A DNA stretch of 64,000 nt. It comes from Rhodospirillaceae bacterium (GTDB lineage Bacteria > Pseudomonadota > Alphaproteobacteria > Rhodospirillales > Rhodospirillaceae). The stretch is from the NCBI GenBank assembly GCA_040219235.1, contig JAVJSV010000012.1, positions 248,001 through 312,000 on the forward strand. The letters are read 5' to 3'. A program made the translations under genes and the position numbers. Shown here piece after piece: positions 15,372-44,470 of this stretch; positions within the stretch are counted from its first letter, which is position 1, and each line of letters starts with the position of its first letter. The notes under the pieces are model-generated. The model was not told the DNA's origin. It made no database searches and was given only the letters and a program-made list of their open reading frames with translations.

Positions 15372-16352
15372 CTATTTCAGACTGCGAAACTCGTCAGTGG
15401 CGTTAATCAACCCAGATTGGACACCAAGTTCCATTGAAGAATGTCCGGCGTCGGCGATAATCCGATAAGCTGCGCCGTCCCAGGTTTGAGCGAGTTTGTC
15501 TGCGGTGATGATGGGACAGACCATATCATAGCGACCTTGAACGATGATGGCTGGATGTTTGGCAAGGACCTTCATGCCTTCTAGCAGTTGGTTCGGCTCA
15601 AAAAACCCTTGGTTAATCATGTAGTGCGCCTCCAGGCGCGCCATCGATAGTGCGCCTGTATAGTATGGTGCCTTCTGTCTGGGTCTGGCCGGTGATGGAA
15701 TGAGGCGAGAGCAGGCATTTTCATAAGCGCACCATGCTGCTGCGGCTGGGCGGTGTGTTTCCGGATTAGGGTCCGTAAGGCGTGCATAATATGCACTTAA
15801 TAGGTCATGGCGTTCATCAATGGGGATATGGTTGGAAAAAGCACGCCATGCCTCTGGAAAGACACGTCGAATTTCATGCAAAAACCAGTCGACTTCTTCA
15901 TCGGAGAACAAAAAGATTCCGCGGAGAATAAAACCGATGCAGCGATCTGGGTGAGCTTGCCCATAGGCCAAAGCCAGAGTCGAACCCCAGGATCCGCCAA
16001 AGATAACCCAACGTTCAATGCTTAAGTGCTCACGCAAAAGCTCTAAATCTGCAACAAGGTGCGCTGTCGTGTTCTCCCGTACTTCGGCTTCTGGCGTGGA
16101 CCGCCCCGCCCCGCGTTGATCCATGAGAACGATGCGGTAGTGGTTGGGGTCAAAAAAACGCCGAAAGGCGGGGGCAGTACCGGCCCCAGGCCCACCATGC
16201 AGAAAGATGACGGGCACACCGTTCGGGTTTCCACTTTCCTCCCAATATAAGGTGTGTAGTGGCCCCGCCCGAAGGAAACCGGACTTCCGCGCCTCAATTG
16301 CGGGGTAAAGTGTGCGACCATCACTTTTGCTCGGCGTGACTTTAGAGGCCAT
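15372..16352 (-). CDS. pip: Proline iminopeptidase
   Basis: Alpha/beta-hydrolase (family S33) that removes N-terminal proline from peptides. The 326-residue length is standard. Visible motifs are the oxyanion HGGPGAG, DQRGAGRSTP after strand 4, the nucleophile elbow GGSWGS with Ser in the middle, and a C-terminal GHSSMELG carrying the catalytic His. No signal peptide, so cytoplasmic. It is a single gene between two terminable regions. Confidence 0.94.
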   Translation of the reverse strand: MASKVTPSKSDGRTLYPAIEARKSGFLRAGPLHTLYWEESGNPNGVPVIFLHGGPGAGTAPAFRRFFDPNHYRIVLMDQRGAGRSTPEAEVRENTTAHLVADLELLREHLSIERWVIFGGSWGSTLALAYGQAHPDRCIGFILRGIFLFSDEEVDWFLHEIRRVFPEAWRAFSNHIPIDERHDLLSAYYARLTDPNPETHRPAAAAWCAYENACSRLIPSPARPRQKAPYYTGALSMARLEAHYMINQGFFEPNQLLEGMKVLAKHPAIIVQGRYDMVCPIITADKLAQTWDGAAYRIIADAGHSSMELGVQSGLINATDEFRSLK

Positions 16353-16460
16353 GATTTCTGGTGGCGAAATAAAGCGCGCTCCTGTTTTGAAAGGCCAGTT
16401 CTGTTGGTGAAAAGCGTAATAAATACATATTATACGAACAACTAACAGCTCAAGGGTTGC

Positions 16461-18187: not shown

Positions 18188-19366
18188 ATGTCTCCAATGA
18201 TGATTCTATTTCTTATCGTATTTGTCGATTTGATTGGCTTCGGCATTATGGTACCGCTGCTGCCGTTTTATGTTGAACGCGTTGGCGCAGGTGCAGAAGT
18301 CATTACCATCACGCTTGGTCTGTACTCTCTATTCCAATTTATGGCCGCCCCTCTTTGGGGAAGACTGAGCGACCGTTATGGCCGCAAGCCTATCCTCGCC
18401 TGGACCCTCTGCGGTTTTGTTATTTCTTATGTGGTTCTGGGCTTAGCAGAAAGCCTATGGTTGGTGGTTGTGGCACGCATATTTGGCGGGCTTATGGCCG
18501 GAAATATTTCTACGGCGTTTGCCTACGTTTCTGACATTACGACCCCTGAAAACCGGGCCAAAGGCATGGGCCTGCTTGGTGCGGCGTTCGGTTTGGGGTT
18601 TATCTTTGGTCCAGTTATTGGCGGTTTGCTCGCAGGCTCGGAAACATCAACAGCAAATTTTCTATTGCCAGCTTTGGTGGCCGCTTCCTTAACCACAACG
18701 GCGCTGCTAGGCGTGGTTTTTATCTTACCTGAATCTTTGAGTCAGGATGTTCGCGATCAAATTCGCAATAAGCCAAAAACGTCACTCAAAACAAAACTCC
18801 ATACGGCTTTTGGTCGGCGCGCGTTGATACTACTGGTAGTGGTTGGCTTCATCTTAACTATGGCGTGGGCCTTGTTGGAGGTCACTTTGGCCTTGTGGGT
18901 TAACCGTGTTCTGAGTTTCGGTCCGCGAGATATCGGGCTCACGCTCGCTTATGTTGGCGTGGTCGGCGTTATCATCCAGGGTGGCCTTATTGGTCCGCTG
19001 ACAAAAAAGTTTGGCGAACGCTTACTTGTTGCTGGTGCGATCGTATTCTTGTTGAGTGGGTATGTTATCCTCGCTGCTGCCAGCGATATTTATATCCTCG
19101 TTGCTGCGATGACTTTTCTGGCGATTGGCAATGGCTTATCCAACCCCTCCCTGTCCAGTCTTGTGTCTAAAGAAGCCAGCGAAACCGAACGCGGCTCTGT
19201 GCTTGGCGTTTACCAGGGGGCCGCCAGTCTCGCCCGGTTTGTTGGACCGCTTTATGCCGGGGTTGTCTTTGCTCAACTGGGTCCGGCCTATCCATTTGTT
19301 ATTGCAGCAGCCTGTATGGCACCTGCTCTGATATTTGTATTTTTATTACCCCGACATCAAGCTTAA
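18188..19366 (+). CDS. MFS transporter, TetA-like drug exporter family
   Basis: Inner-membrane 12-helix proton antiporter of 392 residues. Motif A between TM2 and TM3 is GRLSDRYGRKPIL; motif C-like glycine-rich sequence in TM5 is GLGFIFGPVIGGLLAG. The N-terminus ILFLIVFVDLIGFGIMVPLLP is the classical TetA/multidrug type start. Substrate not predictable. It precedes the orphan ABC ATPase gene by 106 bases, a gap that contains a repeated palindromic element. Confidence 0.92.
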   Translation: MSPMMILFLIVFVDLIGFGIMVPLLPFYVERVGAGAEVITITLGLYSLFQFMAAPLWGRLSDRYGRKPILAWTLCGFVISYVVLGLAESLWLVVVARIFGGLMAGNISTAFAYVSDITTPENRAKGMGLLGAAFGLGFIFGPVIGGLLAGSETSTANFLLPALVAASLTTTALLGVVFILPESLSQDVRDQIRNKPKTSLKTKLHTAFGRRALILLVVVGFILTMAWALLEVTLALWVNRVLSFGPRDIGLTLAYVGVVGVIIQGGLIGPLTKKFGERLLVAGAIVFLLSGYVILAAASDIYILVAAMTFLAIGNGLSNPSLSSLVSKEASETERGSVLGVYQGAASLARFVGPLYAGVVFAQLGPAYPFVIAAACMAPALIFVFLLPRHQA

Positions 19367-19472: not shown

Positions 19473-20174
19473 ATGCTGGAAGCGTTCGACTTACAAAAAT
19501 CGTATGGAGATCATCAGGCCCTGAAAGGGTTGAACCTCTCTGTGAAGTCGGGCGACATTTATTGTCTTTTGGGCGCCAACGGTGCCGGCAAAACAACCAC
19601 CATCAATCTTTTTCTTAATTTCATCAGCCCGACCGGTGGTAAAGCCCAGGTCAATGGCATCGATGTTTCTGAAAATCCGATCGAGACCAAAAAGCATCTC
19701 GCGTACATTCCTGAACAAGTCATGCTGTACCCCAACCTTACAGGCTTGGAAAATATTGAGTACTTTGCGCGCCTAGGGGGGCATGAGGATTACAACGATG
19801 ATGATTTACGAGGTTTTTTACTCCGTTGTGGGCTGCAGTCAGAGGCAGCAGACCGGCGTATTTCAACCTATTCAAAGGGGATGCGTCAGAAAGTTGGTGT
19901 TGCCATTGCGCTTGCCAAACAGGCCAAAGCATTGTTGCTAGATGAGCCTACCTCTGGCCTAGATCCAAAAGCATCCAATGAGTTTTCAGAGCTTTTGAAG
20001 CATCTACAAAGCGAAGGTGCCGCCATTCTTATGGCGACCCACGATTTATTCCGCGCCAAAGAAACCGGCACACGGATCGGCATTATGCGCGAGGGAAATT
20101 TGATGCAAGAGTTGAGCACGGGCGAAGTTTCTCATGCTGACGTCGAACGGATTTATCTCGAACATATGCACTAA
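19473..20174 (+). CDS. ABC transporter ATP-binding protein (ABC-2/NosF-like), orphan
   Basis: A 233-residue nucleotide-binding subunit. Walker A is GANGAGKT (residues 34-41), the signature is YSKGMRQKV (a variant of LSGGQ), Walker B is LLLDEPTSGLDP and the switch His is in MATHD. The family usually drives ABC-2 type export or gliding/copper-type systems. No permease gene lies beside it. The next gene, 23 bases on, is a membrane-anchored ferrochelatase-like protein. The ATG at 19473 has a good AAGGTGG site upstream. The lack of a permease is notable. Confidence 0.88.
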   Translation: MLEAFDLQKSYGDHQALKGLNLSVKSGDIYCLLGANGAGKTTTINLFLNFISPTGGKAQVNGIDVSENPIETKKHLAYIPEQVMLYPNLTGLENIEYFARLGGHEDYNDDDLRGFLLRCGLQSEAADRRISTYSKGMRQKVGVAIALAKQAKALLLDEPTSGLDPKASNEFSELLKHLQSEGAAILMATHDLFRAKETGTRIGIMREGNLMQELSTGEVSHADVERIYLEHMH

Positions 20175-20197: not shown

Positions 20198-21733
20198 ATG
20201 CTCAAGCTGATCAAACGTGTGACCATTGCACTGGTTGTTGTCGGCGTGGGCATCGCGGCTGCTGGTTACGGCACGTTCCGGTATATGAACGGAACGCCAC
20301 CGCAGCTCAAAGAGCCAAACTATTTTCGCATTTACAAAGAACAACTGGCCAGTGAAGAAGCGATGACGCCCGAGGGTGAGGTTGCCATCTTCATGTCAGG
20401 CCTCATCATGCCCGAGAACTTTCGTCTTCCGGATTTTTACAATCTGGCTCTAAAGCCAAGCCAGTATATTCCATGGCCAATTCGCAGTCGAGCAATGGCT
20501 GATCCAGGCGTTATTCTGTTGGACACAGAGCGGTATTATGAATTCGAAGCGTTTGTGCCCACCAATCTTGTTGATGCTTATGGCTCGACCTTAGATGTGG
20601 ATGGCACGCCATGGGTTGAGAGATACCACAACGGAGAGCTGAGATGGGTTGACCCCAGTCCGACCCAGCATCTTGATCACGGGTATTTTATATACGAAGG
20701 CCGTAAGGGCGGTATGCCCGGGCCAGCTCAGAAGCTCATCAACAAGGCGCGGGTCTACTATTATGGTAAGGGTAAAGGTTTTCTGAACGGTAAAGTACCC
20801 CATGAAGCCGGAACGTGGGCGCTGATTGAGGCCACAATGCGCAAGATCAGCGCGAAGTATGGCGATGTGCCCTACCGTTGGGTGACCGCTGAAGATTTTC
20901 ATTTGGCACGAAGCGCGATGTTTGAATTGCTTGACGGTGGTGCTGATACCATCGTCCTAGCCGCACCACGCCCATTATATTCCCATCACGAAGAGTTCAA
21001 CGGGTCTATTAAGCATGCGATGCACTACATTCATGAATGGGAAGACGCCAACGATAAAAAAATCAAAACTATTATCACCGAGAATCTGGCAAATTTTCCG
21101 ATCATTCATGACACTTACGCCAATATGTTGCGCGATCGTCTTGATCAACTGCCTCGCGGTGCAGATGTCAAAATCGTGGCGTCTGTACATGGCATGGCGT
21201 GGGACGTGGTCCCGAATGAAGCTTGGATTGAGTTGGCGCCGAGCTATATCGAGCCCGTCATGGCAAAGCTGAAAGCTGTTTTATCTGAGTATGATTTTGG
21301 TCGCACAGAAGTGGTGCAGTCACAGGATCACTTTGCTGATCCTTATAACAACCCCGAGGGCAAGTACCTTTCCACCAACACGGCGTTCTGGGAGGGTGTT
21401 AACGACAACTATGATTACGTCATTAACTTACCGATCGAATTCTTCGCGGAAAACACAGACACGGTGTTTTCTCATGCCATGTACAACTTTGAAGGTTTTC
21501 CCGGCTATAACATCTACGATCCGGTTGACTACAGTGATTGGTCGGTGCCCTATACGCGGACGTTCGATGTCGACGGGACGCAGATCGTCTACAATGGCTT
21601 GCCGATCGGTAAGTACAACAAGCCCATTGTTGAAGCCTTTTTTCAGGCTTTGGACTCTGTTTTGTCACGCACACAAACAGCCGCGTGGTCGGCAAGTGAT
21701 GCTGCTGCGAACATGAACGAGCGTCTGGATTGA
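20198..21733 (+). CDS. Membrane-anchored protein with ferrochelatase-like domain, function unknown
   Basis: A 511-residue protein with an N-terminal membrane anchor (residues 8-30). A perfect ribosome site (TAAGGAGG) precedes the ATG. Residues about 235-450 follow the class II chelatase order: GADTIVLAAPRPLYSHHEEF (compare 'vvvlPlyPqyS'), then VKIVASVHGMAWD with the His331 that would align with the ferrochelatase metal ligand (SAHSLP), and YVINLPIEFFAENTDTVF (compare 'PigFvSDHiETLye'). In the last motif the usual His and Glu are Asn and Asp. The N-terminal 230 residues are not recognised. The assignment is from motif reading and is tentative. It is probably co-transcribed with the upstream ABC ATPase. 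Confidence 0.6.
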   Translation: MLKLIKRVTIALVVVGVGIAAAGYGTFRYMNGTPPQLKEPNYFRIYKEQLASEEAMTPEGEVAIFMSGLIMPENFRLPDFYNLALKPSQYIPWPIRSRAMADPGVILLDTERYYEFEAFVPTNLVDAYGSTLDVDGTPWVERYHNGELRWVDPSPTQHLDHGYFIYEGRKGGMPGPAQKLINKARVYYYGKGKGFLNGKVPHEAGTWALIEATMRKISAKYGDVPYRWVTAEDFHLARSAMFELLDGGADTIVLAAPRPLYSHHEEFNGSIKHAMHYIHEWEDANDKKIKTIITENLANFPIIHDTYANMLRDRLDQLPRGADVKIVASVHGMAWDVVPNEAWIELAPSYIEPVMAKLKAVLSEYDFGRTEVVQSQDHFADPYNNPEGKYLSTNTAFWEGVNDNYDYVINLPIEFFAENTDTVFSHAMYNFEGFPGYNIYDPVDYSDWSVPYTRTFDVDGTQIVYNGLPIGKYNKPIVEAFFQALDSVLSRTQTAAWSASDAAANMNERLD

Positions 21734-21807: not shown

Positions 21808-23502
21808 ATGCAGCGTCTATTCGTACCAATAGGAGATATGCAGCTTCACGTCAGGCGCGCTGGAAGCGGTCCTCCCGTAATCCTGTTGCACCCGTCTCCG
21901 CAGTCGAGCGTGTTTTCCGTGCCGATGGTAACGCGGTTGGCCAAGAATTTTACAGCCATTGCGGTTGATACCCCTGGATATGGGTTGTCTGACCCCATTC
22001 CTGGCGGCGTGAAAGGTCCGGCGCTGGAAGATTATGTGCAGCCGTTGGTCGCATTGCTTGATTCTCTGGGTATTCAAAAAGCAGCGTTTTATGGCAACGC
22101 CACCGGTGCCGAGATTGCTCATATATTTGCGGCGGCACATCCAGAACGTGTCGCCGTGTGCATGTTAGATACGGCGGGTGATGTCTCCGACGAGCATGTC
22201 GATGTTCTCACCAAAGGCTACTTTCCAGATGTGACTCCCCGTCGAGATGGCGGTCATCTTCTGACCCACTGGGATATGGTGCGTTCGCTCAATCTGTTTG
22301 CCCCTTGGCAGTTTACGACCAAGGCGGCGCGTTTGCCTGTTGATATGCCAGCTCCTGAGAAGATTCAGGAAAAGCTGCTCGACTATTTACGCGCGGGTGA
22401 AAATTACGCTGATGCCTATAGGCCCGCTTTCTATACCGCCAAGCATCATCTCATCAGTCGACTTACGGTTCCGACGACACTCACGCGTTGGGAAGCGAAA
22501 CCAGACCTGACCGAAGTTGATGATCTGATCGCCAAGGGTCTGCCCAACAACTTTACGGTTTTGCACGCTGGGCCGACCATGGACGAACGTCTTGCGGTCA
22601 GTGAGCAATATCTCATCGACAATTATTTACCTTCAGATACGCCAGCGCCGCCACATCCTGTTCAGATAGACGAGACGGCACCTCGCCTCCAGAAAATGTT
22701 TATCTCTATTGAGGGTGGGCAAGTGATGGCACGGGTCTGTATGGCTGGCGAAGGTCGGCCCATTCTCGGTCTACATGACCCTGCTGGGTCTTCAAAGCGC
22801 TTGGCCGACCTGCTGAGCCCTTATCTTGGACATCGTCCTGTCATTGCCGTTGATAATCCAGGTAATGGCGAATCAGACAAATTGATTGATCGTGATGATA
22901 TCACTACTGAAACTTACGCCCAGTCGGCAATCGCAGTGCTTGAGGCTTTGGGGGTTGCAGAGGTTGATGTGATTGGTCGTTACTCGGGCGGTCAAGTTGC
23001 GATTGAAATGGCAGCGCTGCGCCCTGGCTTGGTGAAACACATTGTTCAAGCCGGCGTGCAAATTTTTACGGATGCGGAACGCGAAGATCTCTTGAAAAAT
23101 TATACACCGTCCATCGCGCCTCGGTGGGATGGCGGGCATTTGCTGACGGCCTGGTCAATTGTCCGGGATATGGGCCTCTTTTGGCCCTGGTACAATCGCA
23201 CCAAGGACGGTGTCATTCAGCGCGATGCAAATTTGGATCCCGACTTTCTTGATGGCCGTACACAAGACCTTCTTAAAGTTGGTGATGCTTATCAAAACGC
23301 TTACGCTGCCTCCTTTACTTATTCCATGGCCGAGAAATTGGCAGCCTTGGAGGTGCCTTGTTTGCTGATGGATTGGCCGGGGGCTGCCTCCTATGACCGT
23401 CTTGCGATGGCCAAGCAGGTTGCACCCCAAGTTGTTGTCACAGATATGCCAGAGGACATAACTCAGCTTCTGTCAGTCCTTGACCCATTTTTCGCCAGCT
23501 AG
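21808..23502 (+). CDS. Tandem two-domain alpha/beta-hydrolase-fold protein A
   Basis: A 564-residue protein made of two alpha/beta-hydrolase domains (about 1-280 and 290-564). Each has the oxyanion region (ILLHPSP; GLHDPAGSS), the strand-4 motif (VDTPGYGLSD; VDNPGNGES) and a cap motif PRxDGGHLLTxW followed by a FxPW segment. The nucleophile elbow reads GNATG (96-100) in domain 1 and GRYSG (390-394) in domain 2, so the position normally held by Ser is Ala98 and Tyr392. Domain 2 also ends without an obvious catalytic His. No signal peptide. It sits 11 bases upstream of a paralogue of the same architecture. Confidence 0.85.
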   Translation: MQRLFVPIGDMQLHVRRAGSGPPVILLHPSPQSSVFSVPMVTRLAKNFTAIAVDTPGYGLSDPIPGGVKGPALEDYVQPLVALLDSLGIQKAAFYGNATGAEIAHIFAAAHPERVAVCMLDTAGDVSDEHVDVLTKGYFPDVTPRRDGGHLLTHWDMVRSLNLFAPWQFTTKAARLPVDMPAPEKIQEKLLDYLRAGENYADAYRPAFYTAKHHLISRLTVPTTLTRWEAKPDLTEVDDLIAKGLPNNFTVLHAGPTMDERLAVSEQYLIDNYLPSDTPAPPHPVQIDETAPRLQKMFISIEGGQVMARVCMAGEGRPILGLHDPAGSSKRLADLLSPYLGHRPVIAVDNPGNGESDKLIDRDDITTETYAQSAIAVLEALGVAEVDVIGRYSGGQVAIEMAALRPGLVKHIVQAGVQIFTDAEREDLLKNYTPSIAPRWDGGHLLTAWSIVRDMGLFWPWYNRTKDGVIQRDANLDPDFLDGRTQDLLKVGDAYQNAYAASFTYSMAEKLAALEVPCLLMDWPGAASYDRLAMAKQVAPQVVVTDMPEDITQLLSVLDPFFAS

Positions 23503-23513
23503 GTCATACTCCT

Positions 23514-25193
23514 ATGAATATCACCCGCCGGTTCCTAACCTTGCCCGATGGTAATCAGGTTCACTTTCGCACCGCCGGACGTGGCCCGGCGATGATTTTG
23601 ATGCATCCATCGCCGATTTCATCTGCGGCTTTGATTCCGGCCGTGACGGCTTTTTCTGAGAAATTTACCTGTATCGCCTTAGACACCCCGGGTTATGGCT
23701 TATCAGACGATTTCGTGACCGATAAAACTGACCTGATTGGTTACGCCGATGCCGTGGCGCAGATCTTAGATGCACTCGGTCTTGAATCTGCAGTGATTTA
23801 CGGGGCAGCTACAGGCGCACAAATCGGAACGCAGTTTGCCTGTCGTTATCCCAAACGCACACGGCTTCTCATTCTCGATGGCGCAGGTCATTTTACAGAT
23901 GAAGATCGCGCTCAATTTGCGGATGGATATTTTGTAGACCTCACGCCAAGGCGTGACGGCACGCATCTCTTAGCAGCATGGGATGCCAGCCGTCACCTGT
24001 CCGTGTTCTTCCCATGGATGTCCAACCGTTTGGATCAACGTGTTCAGGCCGACACCCAATCCCCAGAAGCCATTCAGCTCCATGTCGATGATATGCTTCG
24101 GGCCGGCCCGAAGTACAAAGAGGCTTATTGGGAGGCTATGCGGTATGAGGATCATAGTGCGACCGTTAAAGTGAAGGTGCCTACACTGCTTTCATATAAC
24201 GCGGGCAGTATGATGCGTTCACATACGGAAGCGCTCATCAACAAAGGATTGCCCGATAACTTTACGGTTGTCCCTTGTGACCCCAAAACCCGCTACACGG
24301 CGTTACGCACTGCGGCGGCTGATTTTGCAAGTGCACCTCCCTATGCAGATTTTCCTGCACAAACAGATCGCGCTTCAACTATACAAAATATAATGGTCGA
24401 TGTGCCCGGCGGGCAACTGCGCGCACGCGTCTGTCTTGAGGGTGAGGGACTTCCTCTCATGGCCATTCACGATCCGGCGGGCTCAAGTCTTCTCGTTGAA
24501 CCCATGTTAAAACCCTATATCGGTCGTCGGCCTGTGATCGCCTTTGATAACCCGGGAAACGGAGAATCTGAAGCGGCGATCAACCGCATTGATTCCGAAA
24601 ACTATGCAAAGGTCTTGCACGCAGCGCTCGACAGCCTAGGCGTTGATCAGTTGGACGTTATTGGGCGCTATTCGGGTGGCCCAGTGGCGATGGAAATGAG
24701 TTTTCAGAAGTCACAGCGCATTCGTCATATCGTTCAGGCAGGTGTGTCCTTGTATGAAGGCGAGGAGCAAGCACGCCTTATTGAAAACTATACGCCGTCC
24801 GTGGCGCCGCGCTGGGATGGTCGGCACCTCATGACAGCCTGGTCCGTCATGCGCGATCAAAGTCTTTATTGGCCATGGTTTAACCAAACCAAAGAGGGGG
24901 TCATCTGGGAAGACGGTGCCATTGATGTTGCCATGACGGATTTGCGCACCCGCGAGTTGCTCAAATGCGGTGATCGCTATCAGGATGCGTACAACGCGAT
25001 GTGGCGTTATCCCATGCGCGAGAAGCTACCTAAGCTCAATGTACCCTGCTTGCTGTGTCACCCTTCGTGGGAGCCTGTGGGTTATACAACAGCCATGGCT
25101 CAGGCGATTGATCCGCGGTGTCAATCAGCAGAACTGCCACCCGCCATGGCCGATTGGCACACGTCCCTGGACGCCTTTTTCGACGCATCTTAG
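23514..25193 (+). CDS. Tandem two-domain alpha/beta-hydrolase-fold protein B
   Basis: A 559-residue paralogue of the preceding protein with the same double-domain plan. Elbows are GAATG (97-101, Ala99 at the nucleophile position) and GRYSG (384-388, Tyr386). The cap motif PRRDGTHLLAAWD and PRWDGRHLMTAWS recurs in both halves, as does 'NPGNGES' in domain 2. It lies 11 bases after the first copy, so both arose by tandem duplication of an already fused gene. A hydrolase role is not secure given the missing Ser; a binding or non-hydrolytic lyase role is possible. Confidence 0.85.
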   Translation: MNITRRFLTLPDGNQVHFRTAGRGPAMILMHPSPISSAALIPAVTAFSEKFTCIALDTPGYGLSDDFVTDKTDLIGYADAVAQILDALGLESAVIYGAATGAQIGTQFACRYPKRTRLLILDGAGHFTDEDRAQFADGYFVDLTPRRDGTHLLAAWDASRHLSVFFPWMSNRLDQRVQADTQSPEAIQLHVDDMLRAGPKYKEAYWEAMRYEDHSATVKVKVPTLLSYNAGSMMRSHTEALINKGLPDNFTVVPCDPKTRYTALRTAAADFASAPPYADFPAQTDRASTIQNIMVDVPGGQLRARVCLEGEGLPLMAIHDPAGSSLLVEPMLKPYIGRRPVIAFDNPGNGESEAAINRIDSENYAKVLHAALDSLGVDQLDVIGRYSGGPVAMEMSFQKSQRIRHIVQAGVSLYEGEEQARLIENYTPSVAPRWDGRHLMTAWSVMRDQSLYWPWFNQTKEGVIWEDGAIDVAMTDLRTRELLKCGDRYQDAYNAMWRYPMREKLPKLNVPCLLCHPSWEPVGYTTAMAQAIDPRCQSAELPPAMADWHTSLDAFFDAS

Positions 25194-25332: not shown

Positions 25333-25800
25333 ATGACACGTATGTCCGTGTTCTCCAGCCCCTTATTGCTGGGTTTTGATCACATCGAGCGGGTGCTTGA
25401 TCGCGTCAACAAATCCTCTGGAGAAGGGTATCCCCCTTACAACATCGAGCAGACTGGCGAGCATGCCCTGCGCATTACGCTGGCCGTTGCAGGCTTTTCT
25501 GACGATGATTTGTCCGTGACGGTTGAAGATAACCAATTGGTTATTCGGGGGCGTGCCTCAGAAGACACCAGCAATCGTATTTTCCTGCATCGTGGTATTG
25601 CGGCCCGCCAGTTCAGCCGCAGTTTTGTTTTGGCGGAAGGTATAGAGATTAAAAATGCAGAGCTTGATAAAGGCCTCCTGCATATCGATATGCAACGCCC
25701 TGTGCCTGAACCAAAGGTGACGGAAATCAAAATCTCGACGTCCACGCCAGCGAAATCGAAACCAAAAACCATCGATGTTGATCCAACATCTGTTGGATAA
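25333..25800 (+). CDS. Hsp20 family small heat-shock protein (IbpA-like)
   Basis: A 155-residue ATP-independent chaperone. The alpha-crystallin domain spans about residues 38-135: YNIEQTGEHALRITLAVAGF, LVIRGRASEDTSNRIFLHRG, FSRSFVLAEGIEIKNAEL and the family-typical GLLHIDMQRPVPE. The open frame extends to 24970, but that part overlaps the hydrolase gene in another frame. The ATG at 25333 has AGGAGG 10 bases upstream, so it is the start. It is followed after 22 bases by the DUF1150 gene, the usual alphaproteobacterial arrangement. Confidence 0.95.
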   Translation: MTRMSVFSSPLLLGFDHIERVLDRVNKSSGEGYPPYNIEQTGEHALRITLAVAGFSDDDLSVTVEDNQLVIRGRASEDTSNRIFLHRGIAARQFSRSFVLAEGIEIKNAELDKGLLHIDMQRPVPEPKVTEIKISTSTPAKSKPKTIDVDPTSVG

Positions 25801-26341: not shown

Positions 26342-27220
26342 ATGACTTTAGATAACTTATCTGTCATCTCGCGCCGGGAAATACTGGGGGCGTCAGCCGC
26401 ACTGGGTGGTTTTGGTGTGTTTACAATGATGACCAAAAACGTCAGCGCTTCAACGGGAGCGGATACAAAAATTGACCCCGTTACCATGCATCGTAAATTA
26501 CGGTTCCGCACTGACCCAGGTCTTGTTTTTTGGTGGTTGCAGGGTGTGAAATACGGTCAAGTTGGCACAACACTCACGCCGCTTTACACGAACCTTGTTG
26601 GTACAATTCAGCGTATTGTGCCGACCGATGATGGTGGGTTCGATATGACGATGTTGGAAATGGTGATTATTCTAGATGTGGATGGTCACGCGCCTTTAAG
26701 CGAATGGACAAACCCTTATACGGGTGAAGTACTGCCAGTTAATTTTCGTCCAGTCGGACCAACAACCGTACGTTACCGGGCAGATGACTCTCGGGTGACC
26801 CCGAAAGAGCTTGGTGGTGCCAGGCTCGAATCAGAGGCCAGCATCCATCCGCCTGTCATCGTCGGCGACGATGTATTTATGTCGGAAGTCATTCGAGCCC
26901 GTGTGTATCGTCCTGAGCGTGAAGCACCCTTCGAGGTCAATGATATGTCTCATTATCACGGCAGCCTGAGTGAGTTGATCAATCCCGACATTACAATGGC
27001 ATCCGCGACGGTCTCTTTCGCTGAAGTCACAGGCTGGCAAAGCTGGATGAAGATGGGTTCTCAGCCAGGCAACCTGACGTCGCGCACCTTTGGCCGCAAG
27101 GTCTCCAGCTTCGATATGATGCCGGAGAAATGGCGCACTCTATTGGCACAGAAAGCACCTGAGATCGCAGCTGATCCGGTTGCCAGCCTAAACAAACCTG
27201 CTGCTGAGTTTATTCGATAA
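26342..27220 (+). CDS. DUF1838-like exported protein with Tat-type leader
   Basis: A 292-residue protein with a twin-arginine leader (SRREILGASAALGGFG) suggesting export after folding. The body contains features consistent with DUF1838: FWWLQGVKYGQVG, EMVIILDVDGHAPLSEWTNP, YTGEVLPV and a conserved MSHYHGSLSELINP. A Tat signal hints at a cofactor but no cofactor motif is recognised. The gene follows the tRNA by 120 bases and is 116 bases ahead of a small membrane protein gene. Assignment to DUF1838 is by motif memory. Confidence 0.65.
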   Translation: MTLDNLSVISRREILGASAALGGFGVFTMMTKNVSASTGADTKIDPVTMHRKLRFRTDPGLVFWWLQGVKYGQVGTTLTPLYTNLVGTIQRIVPTDDGGFDMTMLEMVIILDVDGHAPLSEWTNPYTGEVLPVNFRPVGPTTVRYRADDSRVTPKELGGARLESEASIHPPVIVGDDVFMSEVIRARVYRPEREAPFEVNDMSHYHGSLSELINPDITMASATVSFAEVTGWQSWMKMGSQPGNLTSRTFGRKVSSFDMMPEKWRTLLAQKAPEIAADPVASLNKPAAEFIR

Positions 27221-43633: not shown

Positions 43634-44470
43634 TTAAGCATCCATGAACTCAGTCATCTGTTTTGCATAAGCCTCAACGTCTTCAGGCTTTGCGGTTAAG
43701 GGATCACCGGTCATGGCTGGCTTCCACTCCGTCACATCCGGGATAAGCGCCAGCGCATCTTCGCCGCGTGCCAAGGTTTTGGCTTTGATCAGCGGTAGTT
43801 TTTCTTCGATGGGATAACTGTAATAAGCTGCGAAGGCTTTATGCGCTGTTGTGGCCATCTTCACTTGTTCGACAAAGGCAATGTGCATCAGATCAGCCGA
43901 CGGCAAGGGCGTGTTACGCATATTTTCGGCTGTGCGTTTAAACCAGGGAAAGTAAGTGTATAGATCGCGCAGCCTGCTCCACAGAAAGTGGACATACACA
44001 CCGCTCTGATCTGGCGTGACGCGCGGCGCATGTTGCGCAGCCATGTCCGTCTGTGCTTGACCGCGCATTATGCGCACTTGTCCAAGCATCAGGCGGCGTA
44101 CCCGGTCTGGCTGGCTGACGGCTAATTCCATCGCCACCCGGCCGCCCAGTGATGATCCATAGATATCGCACTGGTCGATGCTGAGTGTGTCGAGAAAGCG
44201 CGACACTGCATCTGCGTAATAGGCAATATCTGGTGGGGAACTGTCGTCATGAGGCGGCGGTGCGGAGTCGCCCATGCCCATTAAATCAGGTGCAATGACT
44301 GTGCGTGATGCGGCAAGCGCCTCAAGCAATGGCACTTGAATGCGCGCAGAGCCCGGACCAGGATGAAGCACCACTACGGGTACTTTGCCTTCCACGCTCC
44401 GGCGTGAGGTCCAATAATGAACTTGTCCTTCTTCAAGATCGGCAAAGGCTCGCTTTACGTTATTCATCAT
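43634..44470 (-). CDS. Alpha/beta hydrolase fold protein
   Basis: A 278-residue cytoplasmic hydrolase. Oxyanion region VVVLHPGPGSARIQ, strand 4 APDLMGMGDS, elbow GSSLGG with serine in the canonical place, and a cap region with RVTPDQSGVYVHFLWSRLRD and FPWF that resembles the tandem proteins at 21808-25193. A catalytic His near the C-terminus is not obvious. It is divergent from the IclR regulator gene, which may control it. Confidence 0.85.
   Translation of the reverse strand: MMNNVKRAFADLEEGQVHYWTSRRSVEGKVPVVVLHPGPGSARIQVPLLEALAASRTVIAPDLMGMGDSAPPPHDDSSPPDIAYYADAVSRFLDTLSIDQCDIYGSSLGGRVAMELAVSQPDRVRRLMLGQVRIMRGQAQTDMAAQHAPRVTPDQSGVYVHFLWSRLRDLYTYFPWFKRTAENMRNTPLPSADLMHIAFVEQVKMATTAHKAFAAYYSYPIEEKLPLIKAKTLARGEDALALIPDVTEWKPAMTGDPLTAKPEDVEAYAKQMTEFMDA

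Follow-up and report, generated by a model that had tools for sequence, protein, structure and literature searches.

Double-domain alpha/beta-hydrolase-fold proteins with no nucleophile at any of four elbows in a Rhodospirillaceae bacterium: a candidate cap-centred pair

NDRG proteins are not known to be hydrolytic, and CGI-58 has one hydrolase domain. In the consulted part of PMC11878206, CGI-58 is described as lacking the catalytic serine and as acting as an acyltransferase and lipase cofactor. For the cofactor-independent dioxygenases HOD and AqdC, the consulted part of PMC10548524 reports that the elbow serine is not essential and is naturally replaced by alanine in some organisms, and that a His-Asp dyad serves as general base. 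Here, we analysed a stretch of 64,000 nucleotides from a Rhodospirillaceae bacterium (GCA_040219235.1, contig JAVJSV010000012.1, positions 248,001 to 312,000; this whole stretch is called the window), which encodes two adjacent paralogous proteins of the alpha/beta-hydrolase fold, each built of two fused domains: protein A (21808..23502, plus strand, 564 residues) and protein B (23514..25193, plus strand, 559 residues). None of their four halves carries a Ser, Cys or Asp nucleophile at the elbow. We tentatively propose, with confidence slightly short of even, that A and B form a pair that works without a nucleophile, has its functional centre relocated to the cap and binds or converts a small metabolite.

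The open reading frames (ORFs) of A and B are spaced 11 bases apart and their products share 45% identity. The best Pfam match of both is PF00561 (Abhydrolase_1), found in two stretches of each protein (80.5 bits for A and 79.0 bits for B, cut-off 25.8), and the AlphaFold models are of high confidence (A: mean predicted local distance difference test 93.0, predicted template modelling score 0.91; B: 91.9 and 0.89). The initial annotation, made from the DNA letters, had described two adjacent ORFs with two hydrolase-fold domains each, and its coordinates and residue numbers were right. Membership of the fold is borne out by the PF00561 score, the predicted fold and the Foldseek matches, of which the best 50 per model were all of single-domain length (target template modelling score, TM, 0.57-0.72). 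NCBIfam matches were all below their cut-offs among the best 25 of 33 and the best 25 of 28 for A and B, respectively. With the PF00561 superfamily, A and B share the core fold, the order of strands and helices, the His of the oxyanion strand, the Asp-x-Pro-Gly motif and the elbow glycines; they differ from it in being two fused copies, in lacking both a nucleophile and an aligned catalytic His, and in having a cap signature of their own.

Structures of the fluoroacetate dehalogenase RPA1163 account for the majority of the top Foldseek matches to A (E about 1e-13, target TM about 0.6), but the whole-chain superposition is loose (root-mean-square deviation 6-8), and RPA1163 is a single-domain protein with an Asp nucleophile (Asp110 and His280 according to the structure titles), whereas the Asp of fluoroacetate and haloalkane dehalogenases is found at none of the four elbows of A and B. 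The Pfam profile Ndr, which represents the NDRG proteins, scores above its cut-off on both (36.9 bits for A and 25.6 bits for B, cut-off 23.3), but the match is limited to about 80-90 core residues (A 32-118, B 41-121) and lies far below that of Abhydrolase_1; being partial and not the best profile, it does not place A and B in the Ndr family. CGI-58 is alike in being described as lacking the catalytic Ser, and HOD and AqdC differ in their His-Asp dyad, A and B having no aligned His after beta-8. A further comparison is with single-domain GxHTG hydrolases (Sphingomonas WP_087573433.1, Variovorax WP_162595584.1 and Antarctobacter WP_094037777.1, all annotated only as alpha/beta (fold) hydrolase), which have a homologous core with Ser replaced by His but consist of one domain, keep the elbow His and, among 21 surveyed, usually keep the acid. 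A phmmer search of the PDB with a single-domain GSHTG relative gave only ordinary hydrolases among the matches listed (best E 2.8e-10) and the Foldseek matches were of the same kind; therefore no close solved-structure relative of this branch was found. The words GXHTG, GHHTG, GSHTG, GYHTG and GFHTG were not found in the literature searched, most subscription papers being outside its scope, and nothing on tandem or nucleophile-less double-domain hydrolases fitted by title and start of abstract in the same literature.

In the AlphaFold models, the residue at the nucleophile position sits between strand beta-5 and the next helix in all four halves (all coordinates on the plus strand): Ala98 of the GNATG elbow in the A N-half (22093..22107; strand 92-97, helix 99-110), Tyr392 of GRYSG in the A C-half (22975..22989; strand 386-391, helix 393-404), Ala99 of GAATG in the B N-half (23802..23816; strand 93-98, helix 100-111) and Tyr386 of GRYSG in the B C-half (24663..24677; strand 380-385, helix 388-398). 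In PDB alignments without gaps around the elbow, Ala98 of A stands opposite the nucleophilic Asp of GHDRG in 4nvr and Tyr392 opposite the nucleophilic Ser of GWSLG in 4g5x. Models and alignments thus confirm what had been read from the DNA, namely Ala or Tyr in place of Ser at all four elbows. The predicted conservation of these residues in homologues was also found: Ala is kept in 34/34 N-halves of A and B orthologues and Tyr in 30/34 C-halves, the other four (L058, L059, L060 and L061) having Glu or Asp. The Asp-bearing C-half of L060 is included in this count and, at less than 180 residues, left out of the survey described below; L058, L059 and L061, three of the four A relatives from outside the Rhodospirillaceae that were read to the end (not L055), have a shortened C-half with a Glu elbow. 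Judged from the sequences compared, what sets A and B apart is the combination of an N-half Ala with a C-half Tyr.

The double-domain subfamily anticipated in the initial annotation was recovered as 82 distinct proteins, reduced from 124 by removing ORFs contained in longer ones; the two pieces of a split A copy (L034) were excluded, and contig ends truncate L044, L060 and L063. Their halves, surveyed as 163 after the 164th (that of L060) had been dropped, are related sequences and not independent observations. Ser occupies the elbow in 4/163 halves, so homologues with the same domain pairing do not all carry Ser and the proposed loss of the serine nucleophile stands; the catalytic His is absent as well, since none of the 163 halves, A and B included, has a His aligned with the one after beta-8, the loop being an alignment gap. 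An acid at the aligned beta-7 column is found in 0/34 A/B N-halves, and among the 30 Tyr-bearing A/B C-halves this column holds Glu in 15 and Asp in 1. By their elbow pairs the 82 proteins fall into GNATG/GRYSG (A), GAATG/GRYSG (B), GE-types/GMWGG, GFHTG/GxWGG, GFHTS/xxGLS-like, GHHTG/AYGGG, GSHTG/GESxG and a handful of further pairs, one being the GSHTG/GSHTG of L063. The elbow residue of the double-domain groups other than A and B is His, Trp, Gly, Gln or Glu, with one paralogue group showing Ser (Thr once) at the C-half elbow. In these alignments, the elbow site differs between paralogue groups and is mostly constant within them.

The cap signature GxHLxxxWxxxRx(6)PW, by comparison, is near-invariant across the double-domain family and present in all four halves of A and B: GGHLLTHWDMVRSLNLFAPW in the A N-half (22249..22308, with His150, Trp155, Arg159 and Trp167), GGHLLTAWSIVRDMGLFWPW in the A C-half (23131..23190), GTHLLAAWDASRHLSVFFPW in the B N-half (23958..24017) and GRHLMTAWSVMRDQSLYWPW in the B C-half (24819..24878), all on the plus strand. 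The cap motif PRxDGxHLLxxW, initially ascribed to all four, holds for three of them; the B C-half reads PRxDGxHLMxxW. Searched across the window in a looser form, the signature gave five occurrences, of which four fall in A and B; 200 shuffles of the residues of 143 ORFs gave a mean of 0.0. Of the surveyed halves, 156/163 have the cap His (Tyr in the other 7), as do 64/64 A/B halves counted. Among 100 halves thinned to 80% identity, Gly148, His150, Trp155, Arg159, Pro166 and Trp167 of the cap are 95-100% conserved, which is equalled only by His28, Asp54, Gly59 and Ser61 of the core. A single-domain relative elsewhere in the window (43637-44470, minus strand) has the cap signature GVYVHFLWSRLRDLYTYFPW, with Tyr for His, together with an elbow Ser (GSSLGG) and no acid or His at the aligned triad columns.

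Because the cap is near-invariant while the elbow differs between groups and the catalytic His is absent, we suggest that the functional centre shifts from the triad to the cap. There, the His, Trp and Arg of the signature would hold a small ligand, probably a carboxylate or an aromatic compound, with the cap His as the likely acid/base or hydrogen-bonding residue, and the elbow residue, Ala in the N-halves and Tyr in the C-halves, would shape the pocket. A and B may cooperate as a four-domain assembly in which one metabolite is bound, or converted without a covalent enzyme intermediate.

The history of the family was addressed by comparing 26 single-domain rows, of which 21 have His at the elbow (GxHTG) and 5 have Ser (four canonical outgroup picks and one in the window). 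The set of 21 excludes by definition the Ser-bearing single relative L012; among the 21, the acid column holds Asp or Glu in 20, a His stands in the catalytic column in 7 and within a few columns in 11. In a first tree of 98 of 189 domains (below 72% identity), calculated with the elbow columns left out, 37/37 N-halves grouped together (support 80) as did 34/35 C-halves (support 97), and the GSHTG single-domain proteins, the Ser-bearing L012 and the C-half of L063 were placed beside the C group. A second tree of 92 domains, after removal of six long-branched rows, gave a C group of 33 (98/97) and an N group (95/18) that is weak by one measure; the root was set by few, long-branched canonical hydrolases. 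A and B form one clade in both the N-half and the C-half trees (support 99), in line with the gene duplication originally proposed for them; the tree does not fix how A, B and the C-halves with Glu branched. The fusion looks single and old, because the halves of the double-domain proteins fall into a single N and a single C group, and at least seven paralogue groups followed it. The serine was, on this comparison, probably lost before the fusion. The initial view that Ser was lost after fusion and duplication, or peculiarly in this pair, was not supported, given His in 21/26 single-domain rows and the absence of Ser from other double-domain groups; an independent loss in A and in B was rejected on the same grounds. 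In the simplest order, single-domain ancestors would have exchanged Ser for His, two halves that had already diverged would have fused once, duplications would have followed, and A and B would have acquired Ala and Tyr last; the Ser of L012, inside the GSHTG group, represents either a reversal or a less simple history. Adjacent single-domain gene pairs with GxHTG-like elbows (one member has GHHGG) were seen in 5/15 stretches read from the window's own genome (L134, L135, L137, L147 and L148), which suggests how the fusion arose. With less than even confidence, we picture a branch that lost Ser-His-Asp stepwise (elbow Ser to His, then loss of the catalytic His, then of the elbow His), recentred on the cap, fused and, within one alphaproteobacterial lineage, diversified into seven or more paralogue groups; A and B would be the members that changed most, acting jointly as an enzyme or sensor of four domains that has no nucleophile.

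A and B belong to a conserved gene order. An ABC transporter ATPase (19473..20174) and p511, a 511-residue protein with a hydrophobic N-terminus as judged by eye (20198..21733), precede them in the window, and the usual outer members are a major facilitator superfamily (MFS) transporter upstream (18188..19366) and an Hsp20 small heat-shock protein downstream (25333..25800), all on the plus strand. The order ABC ATPase, p511, A, B recurs outside the window in 12/15 stretches compared, covering four genera; two of the 12 are the same place in genome G009, and one copy in G003 has p511 and A broken. The exceptions are G457, without p511, G030, without A, and L054, cut by the contig end; the MFS and Hsp20 genes were not found in the G022 stretch. 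A adjoins B in 14/16 B loci (the other two being G459, at a contig end, and G030), and B was not seen near four A relatives with flanks on both sides (L055, L058, L059 and L061). A gene like the TonB-dependent receptor of the window occurs in 4/5 A loci from these metagenome-assembled genomes (MAGs), L060 included, and adjoins A in three. p511 is strongly conserved, but it was discarded as a functional clue: against ferrochelatase it scores 19.3 bits, short of the cut-off of 27, and a profile of six orthologues, used to look for a solved relative, gave one chain only, at chance level (E 0.38). A divergent neighbour on the minus strand (15372-16460) encodes a prolyl aminopeptidase (TIGR01249, 352.7 bits against a cut-off of 259.75) whose GGSWGS elbow is intact and which might be an active partner; other genera likewise have such a gene upstream of the operon.

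The loci read cover a part of the matches listed by the genome searches. The window's own genome has five double-domain proteins (matches above 500 residues) and many single-domain relatives. B matched at E <= 1e-60 in 19/73 genomes and 6/23 genera of the family, and A matched at E <= 1e-40 in 2/398 genomes across the phylum, one of them the window's own. Public genome contigs yielded 15 loci, nine of them (L049-L054, L056, L057 and L062) in genomes already searched and six new, from MAGs labelled Gammaproteobacteria (L058 and L059), Steroidobacteraceae (L055 and L061), uncultured proteobacterium (L060) and Chloroflexi (L063). The L054 contig is labelled Candidatus Marinimicrobia, but its content is that of a G029 contig; the genome search assigns G029 to the same family as the window, and the label may be wrong. 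Fourteen plasmid records matched A, all below 60% identity. Among the five that were read, double-domain proteins are encoded in Azospirillum ramasamyi and on Sphingomonas pJE1 (cut at the edge, besides one single-domain protein), and single-domain relatives on plasmids of Sphingobium, Variovorax and Antarctobacter. Catabolic-type genes surround four of the five, two of these four being nearly the same region, and include isopropylmalate-dehydratase-like, CoA-transferase, HMG-CoA-lyase, adenylate-forming, IclR and transporter genes. The other paralogues of the window's genome have mixed surroundings, for example aconitase and Hsp90. A GFHTS-like double-domain gene adjoins an MFS gene in both this genome and Sphingomonas pJE1 (L140 and L151). 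In the window's genome, single-domain GxHTG genes repeatedly have DUF1838 genes (PF08894) nearby (window 26342-27217; L142, L145, L147 and L148); four of one similarity cluster lie in L147, and Pfam bears out the assignment for the gene in the window, for two of those in L147 and for one in L142. DUF1838 was set aside as a functional clue, its name occurring in one paper of the literature searched.

The conservation of A and B is difficult to reconcile with decaying duplicates devoid of function, even though triad residues have been lost and one MAG contig has A in two pieces. The ratio of nonsynonymous to synonymous substitutions (dN/dS) is 0.051 for A and 0.057 for B in the pair G003/G005, and 0.196 and 0.183 in the very close pair G006/G004; these are the only unsaturated pairs, every comparison with the window being saturated at silent sites. 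When six loci were compared with the window, the identity of A was 78-83%, above MFS (68-75%), similar to MscS (74-79%) and below the ABC ATPase (87-91%). With dN/dS of 0.05-0.20, and therefore no decay, and with the gene order kept, we reject this explanation as having a negligible chance, and the initial claim of conservation was correct. The split A copy of G003 consists of two overlapping pieces (L034/L062) on a second contig, with an unbroken copy on another contig. Persisting hydrolysis, through a displaced nucleophile (Ser393 of A, Ser387 of B) or through water activated by another residue, would be favoured by the Ser that directly follows Tyr in 29/30 GRY[SA]G elbows, by the acidic residues remaining near the end of beta-7 in the C-halves and by the Ser at the C-half elbow of one paralogue group. 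However, Ser393 is the first residue of the helix after the elbow in the model of A and is Ala in one orthologue (GRYAG, L029), which disfavours it as a nucleophile; B is less clean, DSSP leaving Tyr386 and Ser387 both in the turn. In addition, the N-half elbows GNATG and GAATG have no Ser nearby, and the aligned catalytic His is missing from every half, making hydrolysis improbable. We regard as similarly improbable a known non-nucleophilic chemistry of the kind found in cofactor-free dioxygenases or decarboxylases, in which a His-acid dyad acts and the elbow residue does not matter. It draws support from the dispensable nucleophile of these dioxygenases, from tomato MKS1, which lacks the canonical triad and keeps a His base (consulted part of PMC10548524), and from those single-domain GxHTG relatives that retain acid and His; in A and B, though, no His aligns with that of the dyad, and a relocated His would be the sole candidate.

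Nearly as likely as the cap-centred function, and ranking just behind it, is a role without any turnover: as pure pseudoenzymes, the two proteins would act as scaffolds, as regulators or in ligand sensing, with p511 and the ABC ATPase as conceivable clients, and the cap would hold halves or proteins together. This would fit the absence of an intact triad from all four halves, neighbouring genes that include an ABC ATPase, p511 and a chaperone but no obvious catabolic enzymes, the shortened Glu-bearing C-halves of L058, L059 and L061, and other triad-less hydrolase-fold families that are thought non-enzymatic (consulted part of PMC11878206). It sits less well with a cap His and Arg that are polar and near-invariant in every paralogue group and in both halves, and with the enzyme genes around four of the five plasmid-borne relatives read. 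Several observations weigh against the cap-centred function itself. The cap signature could be a domain interface, and the diversity of the elbows could reflect pockets that have fallen out of use. Nor is the loss of the acid clear-cut, A having Asp522 at the end of the C-half beta-7, four columns before the acid column, and B having Glu520 at that column. The cap is less constant in single-domain relatives, with the cap His in just 13/21. No catabolic cluster was seen around A and B, the MFS gene scores best with efflux families (all below cut-offs), and the Antarctobacter relative, the fifth on plasmids, lies outside a catabolic cluster. G030 keeps p511, B and Hsp20 without A, so the two are not strictly obligate partners. 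Despite these points, we favour, tentatively, a nucleophile-free pair centred on the cap.

The alpha/beta hydrolases count among the most common enzymes, and those relatives in this analysis that carry an annotation are named only as hydrolases, even though the usual nucleophile and His are missing. A near-invariant cap combined with a variable nucleophile site makes the idea of a second, cap-based centre in this fold testable, and the graded series from single-domain GxHTG through fused GxHTG to fused Ala/Tyr proteins would allow the study of how an enzyme fold may turn non-hydrolytic.

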